DNA from: Streptomyces sp. NBC_00377
GTDB taxonomy: Bacteria; Actinomycetota; Actinomycetes; Streptomycetales; Streptomycetaceae
Assembly: GCF_036075115.1 (NCBI RefSeq)
Contig: NZ_CP107958.1
Coordinates: 1,488,001 to 1,552,000, forward strand
Reading direction: 5' to 3'
Length of the DNA: 64,000 nt
Part shown: positions 30,151-31,348 of the stretch, piece by piece
Numbering within the stretch: position 1 is the first letter of the stretch
Layout: each line of letters opens with the position of its first letter
Program-made: the position numbers and the translations under genes
Notes under the pieces: generated by a model
Told to the model about the DNA's origin: nothing
What the model saw: only the letters and a program-made list of their open reading frames with translations
Database searches by the model: none

Positions 30151-30418
30151 ACGTGAAGTGTTGGGAACGACACACCCCCCGCCGGATGACTGAACAGAAG
30201 TCAGCAGTTATCGAGCACTTTTGACCGGTCGAAGAAGAAGGAGTCGACCGCGGGACCGTTTCTGTCGTATCCGCGCCGCCTTCGCGCACTCTTCGGGTTG
30301 TACGGGTTCGGCAGCGCCGCTCCTCCCCTTTGCGGTGCTTCGGTGCCCCTTCGCCGCCGGTGCCGCCCGGTGTCGCCCCTCTCACACCGGCCGCCGTGAT
30401 CATGCGGGCGAGCCGGTG
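30151..30418. other. Intergenic region upstream of the hairpin element
   Basis: This stretch is divergent between the HATPase gene and the enoyl-CoA hydratase gene. I see no gene here. It must contain the HATPase promoter and probably the promoter for the hairpin and echA transcript. Confidence 0.4.
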
Positions 30419-30589
30419 GCTAGTGCCGCGGCGGGCAACGTTTGCCCGTCAAGGAGCGGCGTCCGGTGCGTGCTCTCGGCGTGCCGGCCGGAAGTCCTCG
30501 TACTGGACGTACCTGGGCTTTCGGCCGGTGCGGCGAGAGTGCGTGCCGGGCGTCGCGACGGGGCGAACGTTGCCTGTCGCGGCACTAGC
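30419..30589 (+). repeat. 171-bp long imperfect palindrome (structured RNA or miniature element)
   Basis: The element starts GCTAGTGCCGCG and ends CGCGGCACTAGC, and its two arms of about 80 nt pair along nearly their whole length around CGTACTGGACGTAC. I count 11 transition differences between arms. Every one leaves a G-U pair in a plus-strand transcript, none being G-C/A-U breaks of that strand, whereas a minus-strand transcript would have A-C mismatches. A few transversions and a short gap also occur. It ends 9 bp before the enoyl-CoA hydratase ATG. I recall similar sequences in other Streptomyces but could not check. Confidence 0.85.
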
Positions 30590-30598
30590 ATCCGGGGC

Positions 30599-31348
30599 AT
30601 GGAGCCCGAACTGCTGCACGGCGTCACCGACGCGGTCGCCACCGTCGTCCTGCACCACCCGGCGAAGCGCAACGCCATGACGGCCGCGATGTGGGCGGCG
30701 CTGCCCCCGTTGCTCGACACCCTGGCCGCCGACCCGGCGGTGCGGGCGCTGGTGCTCACCGGCGCGGGCGGCACCTTCTGCGCGGGGGCCGACATCTCCA
30801 CCCTCCAGGGGTCTCCGGACGAGGCGCAGGGGCTGGCGGTACGGGCCGAGGAGGCCCTCGCGGCGTTCCCGAAGCCGACCCTGGCCGCGGTCCGGGGGCA
30901 CTGCGTCGGCGGTGGCGCCCAGCTCGCCGCCGCCTGTGACCTGCGGTTCGCCGAGGAGGGCGCGCTGTTCGGGGTGACTCCGGCGAAGCTCGGGATCGTC
31001 TACCCGTCCACCGCCACCCGGCGACTGGTGCACCTGGTGGGCCCGGCCACCGCCAAGTACCTCCTGTTCTCCGGTGAGTTGATCGGCACGGAGCGGGCGC
31101 TGCGCACGGGCCTGGTCGACGAGGTGCTGCCCGCCGACGGACTCGACGAGCGCGTTGCGGAGTTCACCCGCGTGCTGGTCTCCCGCTCCCAGCTCACGCA
31201 GGCCGCCGCGAAGGAGTTCGCCAACGGGCGCGAGGACCGGGACGCCCACTGGAGCGCGCAGGCCCGCGGCAGCGGCGACACCGCGGAGGGCGTCGCCGCG
31301 TTCCTGGAACGCAGGGAGCCGCGCTTCACCTGGACCACGTCGGGCTGA
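30599..31348 (+). CDS. Enoyl-CoA hydratase/isomerase family protein
   Basis: 249 aa, crotonase fold. The oxyanion-hole segments are [13 protein letters not shown] with [13 protein letters not shown], and [16 protein letters not shown]; the catalytic region is [13 protein letters not shown]. It should act on a CoA thioester, hydrating or isomerising a double bond. Which substrate it uses is not readable. The ATG at 30599 directly follows the 171-bp hairpin, whose end is 9 bp upstream, and the Shine-Dalgarno is weak (CCGGGG). A large hairpin terminator follows. Confidence 0.9.

Follow-up and report, generated by a model that had tools for sequence, protein, structure and literature searches.

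A putative IS630-derived MITE of Streptomyces carrying a hairpin core whose plus-strand fold appears to be kept by selection

Non-autonomous transposons of the MITE type are usually taken as DNA parasites, and their stem-loop as a by-product of the inverted ends. Several such elements have been described in other bacteria. The repeat unit of pneumococcus (RUP, 107 bp) is non-autonomous, has ends like those of the IS630 family, shows a TA duplication and is present in many recent copies (PMC2229807). The Correia or NEMIS elements of Neisseria are MITEs with a TA duplication whose transcripts form long stems (PMC2229807), and cleavage of these transcripts by RNase III is reported (PMC2229807; PMC2649163). 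The 127-bp ERIC or RU-1 elements of enterobacteria have TA at their ends, form a stable stem and affect mRNA stability in an orientation-dependent manner (PMC2229807). Members of the IS630 family (Tc1/mariner-like) transpose by double-stranded cut-and-paste (PMC2170065), and the title of Tenzen and Ohtsubo (1991), as cited in PMC2170065, gives the TA of CTAG as the insertion site of IS630.

The hairpin analyzed here resembles RUP in all of the features named, but a strand-polarised covarying core and a core common to different terminal repeats are not reported for RUP (PMC2229807). Correia/NEMIS and ERIC/RU-1 belong to different hosts and are likened to the Streptomyces element by description, not by sequence; RNase III action is here only a candidate, and the orientation relative to genes, unlike in ERIC/RU-1, is not significantly biased. 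The IS630 family is the likely source of the ends and of the transposase, going by its TA in CTAG target (title cited in PMC2170065); the element itself lacks a transposase.

The locus lies in a stretch of 64,000 nucleotides from Streptomyces sp. NBC_00377, which as a whole is called the window. The first-pass annotation had placed a hairpin at 30419-30589; the inverted repeat itself covers 169 bp (30420-30588), runs from CTAG to CTAG, and the earlier extent was one accidental base too long at either end. The plus-strand RNA folds along the whole length of the repeat. Folding of 30400-30610 gave -172.9 kcal/mol for the plus-strand RNA (shuffles -107.6 ± 4.9, z -13.4) and -122.2 kcal/mol (z -7.9) for the minus-strand RNA; on its own, the element forms 76 plus-strand pairs, which include 13 G-U and no A-C, and 63 pairs on the minus strand. 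The two arms were aligned with each other at the DNA level, treating both kinds of transition alike. Besides 3 transversions they differ by 14 transitions, all of which give G-U and none A-C in the plus-strand RNA (p = 1.2e-4 for a fair coin), so that the one-sidedness noticed earlier on a count of 11 is stronger than was thought. As the plus orientation of the element we took the strand whose RNA retains the G-U pairs. Its features are listed in Table 1; the core hairpin has a UGGAC apical loop and GUGC:GUGC tandem wobble blocks. A search of 30300-30700 gave no promoter- or terminator-like site, and an intrinsic terminator was rejected since a T-run is missing. The best Rfam match was mir-8515 with 28.5 bits against a gathering threshold of 100; no family reached its threshold.

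Table 1. Features of the element and its surroundings (window coordinates)
Feature	Coordinates	Strand	Evidence
Left CTAG target copy	30420..30423		sequence; TA at 30421-30422 is one of two target-site duplicates; empty site of relatives has a single TAG
Putative mobile element (MITE), 163 bp	30423..30585	+	25 copies with identity of at least 99%; 172 of 296 genus genomes have a relative (E 1e-10)
Left terminal inverted repeat	30423..30449	+	resembles the right end of the IS630-family insertion sequence (30 nt including CTAG, 87%)
AAGGA unpaired bulge at boundary of terminal repeat and core	30451..30455	+	fold; common to terminal-repeat families A and B
Conserved 102-nt core hairpin	30456..30557	+	covariation and pair counts; common to elements with different terminal repeats
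Right terminal inverted repeat	30557..30585	-	resembles the left end of the IS630-family insertion sequence (32 nt including CTAG, 91%)
Right CTAG copy	30585..30588		sequence; second TA at 30586-30587
TAGCAT, probable -10 box of leaderless hydratase gene	30586..30591	+	conserved with the ATG in relatives lacking the element
Enoyl-CoA hydratase/isomerase gene, chance neighbour	30599..31348	+	Pfam PF00378 (ECH_1), E 2.6e-43

The genome (9.24 Mb, two contigs) contains 25 full-length copies, the one in the window included, which lie in both orientations and at unrelated places. What they have in common ends with the CTAG on either side (169 bp). Small variants recur among them, one in four of the copies and another in three, and point to several active lineages. 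The window element sits between two copies of TA, whereas the empty hydratase site of relatives, the one site examined, carries a single TA; the element proper is thus 30423-30585, with the TA duplicated inside CTAG. It has no transposase gene, inverted repeats of about 27 bp and no codon periodicity, and its end GCTAGTGCCGCG is composed of the CTAG target and the terminal repeat GTGCCGCG. On the same contig, a CTAG-bounded element at 7,653,931-7,655,668 (L086, 1432-3169) has perfectly matching 16-nt inverted ends and encodes a 390-aa transposase with HTH and DDE_3 domains; it is an insertion sequence of the IS630/Tc1-mariner type. A second, truncated copy of this reading frame (327 of 390 residues) is located near the chromosome end at about 42.7 kb (L087, around 2140). 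The ends of the hairpin resemble those of the insertion sequence crosswise, left to right and right to left (Table 1), a pattern that would be expected of internal replacement. No phage matches the element.

The hairpin is short and without a transposase, its ends match an autonomous element, its TA is duplicated with an empty site in relatives, and near-identical copies are many. As judged from these features it is a non-autonomous transposon (MITE) derived from IS630. The suggestion of a mobile structured element with the end given above, one of several made in the first-pass annotation, is therefore borne out by the copies and the CTAG/TA duplication; the 24 further copies, the target duplication and the insertion sequence with matching ends go beyond what had been noted. 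An IS630-family transposase made elsewhere in the genome would bind the terminal repeats, cut the element out and paste it into the TA within a CTAG, thereby duplicating the TA; this movement in trans is read from the ends only.

The other role proposed for the hairpin was that of a 5' regulatory leader RNA of the enoyl-CoA hydratase gene. The gene is indeed present, directly downstream and on the same strand, with its ATG at 30599, 10 bp past the element and not 9 bp as first given. This arrangement would suit a leader, but such a role is highly improbable: the 24 other copies adjoin unrelated genes, no Rfam family matches at its threshold, and conservation upstream of the same gene was not found in relatives, which have the hydratase gene with an empty site, GG(C/A/T)TAGCATCC...ATG. 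These relatives conserve both TAGCAT and, 7 nt further on, the ATG, and TAGCAT persists on the right side of the element, between hairpin and ATG, where it is probably the -10 box of a leaderless promoter. Because this -10-like motif lies to the right of the element, the native hydratase mRNA is expected to begin past the hairpin. The element would then be located upstream of the probable hydratase start, with only the -35 region displaced.

Many of the relatives counted in Table 1 match element positions 37-138 only, because the 102-nt core sits between different terminal repeats. Across such elements in Streptomycetaceae the core is mostly 85-100% identical. The terminal repeats fall into family A (GTGCCGCGRCAGGCAACGTT), family B (GGGGGTKTCTGAYGGATC), family C (GGGCCTGTCGTCAAA), family E (GGTCGTGTCCGCAAAG or GGGCGTGTTGCGAAAG) and family F (GGGGGTGTTTCGAAAG), and the core-bearing elements of these differing ends lie nearly all at CTAG. 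A covariance model of the core, the kind of search recommended earlier, found copies in 70 of 121 genomes of the genus; within a class-wide sample of 114 genera it had no hits in any other genus. Exact pattern matches extend the core to Kitasatospora and plasmids extend it to Embleya. The core is dispensable for mobility, as family C includes elements of 64-75 bp that lack it. The short core-less elements are near-perfect palindromes and the long ones carry G-U. A transposase carrying the core within one insertion sequence was not found. For families B, C, E and F, no autonomous partners were detected among the DDE_3 and DUF4096 transposases of eight genomes or with the end pattern in four; transposases adjacent to elements in two genomes (G009, G038) were rejected as partners, being unrelated insertions beside a MITE. 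From the range of ends we infer that the core may have been captured by several different transposases.

The relatives allowed the fold of the core to be followed copy by copy. In 74 distinct cores 97.7% of the cells are paired, and 15 of the 45 pairs are changed on both sides (98 cells). None of 500 shuffles reached any of the covariation measures, and sliding the partner by 1-3 columns reduced pairing to 30-52%. Among the pair cells of 139 distinct cores, 4762 are Watson-Crick, 1316 G-U, 25 A-C and 152 other. A palindrome decaying without selection would yield G-U and A-C equally. Equal numbers were not seen, and the selection on the plus strand claimed in the first-pass annotation is well supported by these counts together with the covariation.

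A strand-biased mutation from C to T on the plus strand of a decaying palindrome could mimic the G-U excess without selection, and C to T is in fact the main one-sided change (160 cells versus 16 with G to A). For this reason rare and common changes were compared, a one-sided change at a Watson-Crick pair being called rare if seen in two cores or fewer and common if seen in more. Rare changes comprise 8 G-U and 11 A-C, common ones 16 and 2 (Fisher p = 0.005); the contrast depends on the cut, for if only changes seen in one core are called rare the values are 5:6 and 19:7 (p = 0.14). That rare changes lack a strand bias while those that have spread are biased argues against mutation bias. In addition, compensating double changes, C-G to G-C included, occur among the 15 pairs, and insertions are found in both orientations. 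Mutation bias is thus a very improbable explanation.

The GTGC blocks in both arms might instead be protein sites on the DNA, with the G-U pairs as a by-product, and GTGC is kept in 95-98% of the cores at five of the six places. However, the G-U excess is equally clear outside the blocks (462 cells versus 18 with A-C), and in the families read the blocks form pairs with one another, which makes this explanation improbable. Families A and B also contain an open frame with a well-placed ribosome site (AAGGAG, then GTG, 40 codons and the terminal TAG as stop). That the core encodes this small protein can be dismissed almost entirely: substitutions show no codon periodicity (49, 56 and 54 distinct ones by position), variable pairs alter amino acids, and the ribosome site is absent in the other families.

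The outer arms carry G-U over A-C in families A (102 versus 11) and F (11 versus 0) and less so in family E (32 versus 14). Family C has no such bias (20 versus 32), 20 of the 32 lying at one arm-junction position that may be misaligned. In all of twelve more distant relatives, among them some whose middle stem is rebuilt, the same strand gives the better fold. Comparison of the copies shows selection that keeps the plus-strand fold of the core even with different transposon ends. Changes in the 102-nt cargo arise on both strands, and almost only those preserving plus-strand pairing have spread. We are fairly confident that the locus as a whole is best explained as a MITE moved by an IS630-type transposase and carrying a cargo whose plus-strand fold is selected.

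To determine the gene context, we used our own codon-usage gene calls instead of the annotation, together with the detected element ends, which left 106 sites with callable genes. Of these, 44 lie between convergent and 14 between divergent genes. Where neighbours are co-directional, they run with the plus strand at 15 sites and against it at 27 (p = 0.09, not significant). The earlier conclusion that the strand bias implies reading towards the adjacent gene does not hold against these figures, and selection via co-directional read-through at insertion sites was rejected, orientation not being significantly biased. Since there is no orientation with genes, a benefit to co-directional neighbours can hardly account for the constraint, which more probably operates in the element's own cycle or at any time the element is transcribed.

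At 60 of the 106 sites the stop codon of a neighbouring gene is the TAG of the element's own CTAG, compared to 44 of 139 other CTAG located at stops (p = 1.4e-4), and such stop-codon insertions usually lie between convergent genes. An insertion re-creates CTAG at either end and so preserves the stop. CTAG is uncommon within coding DNA, it frequently coincides with a TAG stop, and the rebuilt stop would make an insertion harmless, which the data show as an association. Overlapping convergent transcripts are numerous in Streptomyces (PMC3765725).

The polarity of the fold does not by itself decide between RNA and DNA, since the plus strand is also the more stable one when DNA parameters are used for folding (-80 versus -57 kcal/mol for the minus strand). 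The constrained molecule could therefore be the plus DNA strand folded as a single strand during replication, repair or transposition, and the lack of an orientation preference relative to genes would fit a function in DNA. Tandem G-U blocks are well tolerated in RNA and poor in DNA. These blocks are near-invariant in the core, and IS630-type transposition is double-stranded cut-and-paste (PMC2170065), for which one folded strand is unnecessary; on both grounds RNA is favoured and single-stranded DNA is unlikely.

As to an RNA, we tentatively propose a read-through transcript, which may well not be the final answer. RNA polymerase would read through the element. The resulting transcript would have a 75-bp stem, which probably either is cut by RNase III or stops decay from the 3' end; cleavage by RNase III is plausible for a stem this long and is reported for the neisserial elements (PMC2229807). 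With G-U pairs the RNA would remain paired while the DNA would be an imperfect and hence stable palindrome. It is also possible, if rather doubtful, that the core is itself a structured RNA and a hyperparasite of transposons. A hairpin lineage would then have been caught between the ends of several insertion sequences, its folded transcript acting in cis or trans on transposition or host RNA metabolism, and the G-U pairs reconciling paired RNA with stable DNA.

The element represents a MITE group that is new but of a known kind, and its shared hairpin core, maintained by selection, is unusual. No description of it was found in the open literature, subscription journals lying outside the scope of the search. 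Its many natural copies show that the one-strand fold itself is selected, that the core is common to different ends and that insertions gather on stop codons. Within a genus of importance for antibiotics, these copies form a dataset where selection acting on the RNA structure of a mobile element can be measured one copy at a time, and they suggest a way to encode a long RNA stem without a perfect DNA palindrome.

Further forms of these elements were observed. A second, diverged core type, GGTGCGGTGCATCGCAAGGCGGAG...GCGAGGTGCCGTGCC, is present in this genome and in others (L089-L096; L350, L351, L353, L354, L364, L367, L368); it has the lower stem and apical loop in common with the first, and its middle stem is different. 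Six loci (L439, L441-L445) carry core-less near-perfect palindromes of 64-91 bp at CTAG with ends like those of family C, which are minimal MITEs consisting of nothing but terminal repeats. GGA or GNA recurs in the loops, for example in the apical UGGAC and CGGAG (core columns 50-52). A CsrA/Rsm target was rejected, as PF02599 had no match in the genome while controls were positive. Families C and E have a left sub-hairpin, CGCCC-GGA/GAA-GGGCG, and in a core variant of genome G103 (L446, 181-bp element) the apical stem is wholly different in sequence, perfectly paired and closed by a GGA loop. At L430 (1220-2513), an IS630-type element with the ends GTGACCTGAGTCAGAG is inserted exactly into the terminal CTAG of a family B MITE, showing that other CTAG-specific elements use the ends of MITEs as targets.
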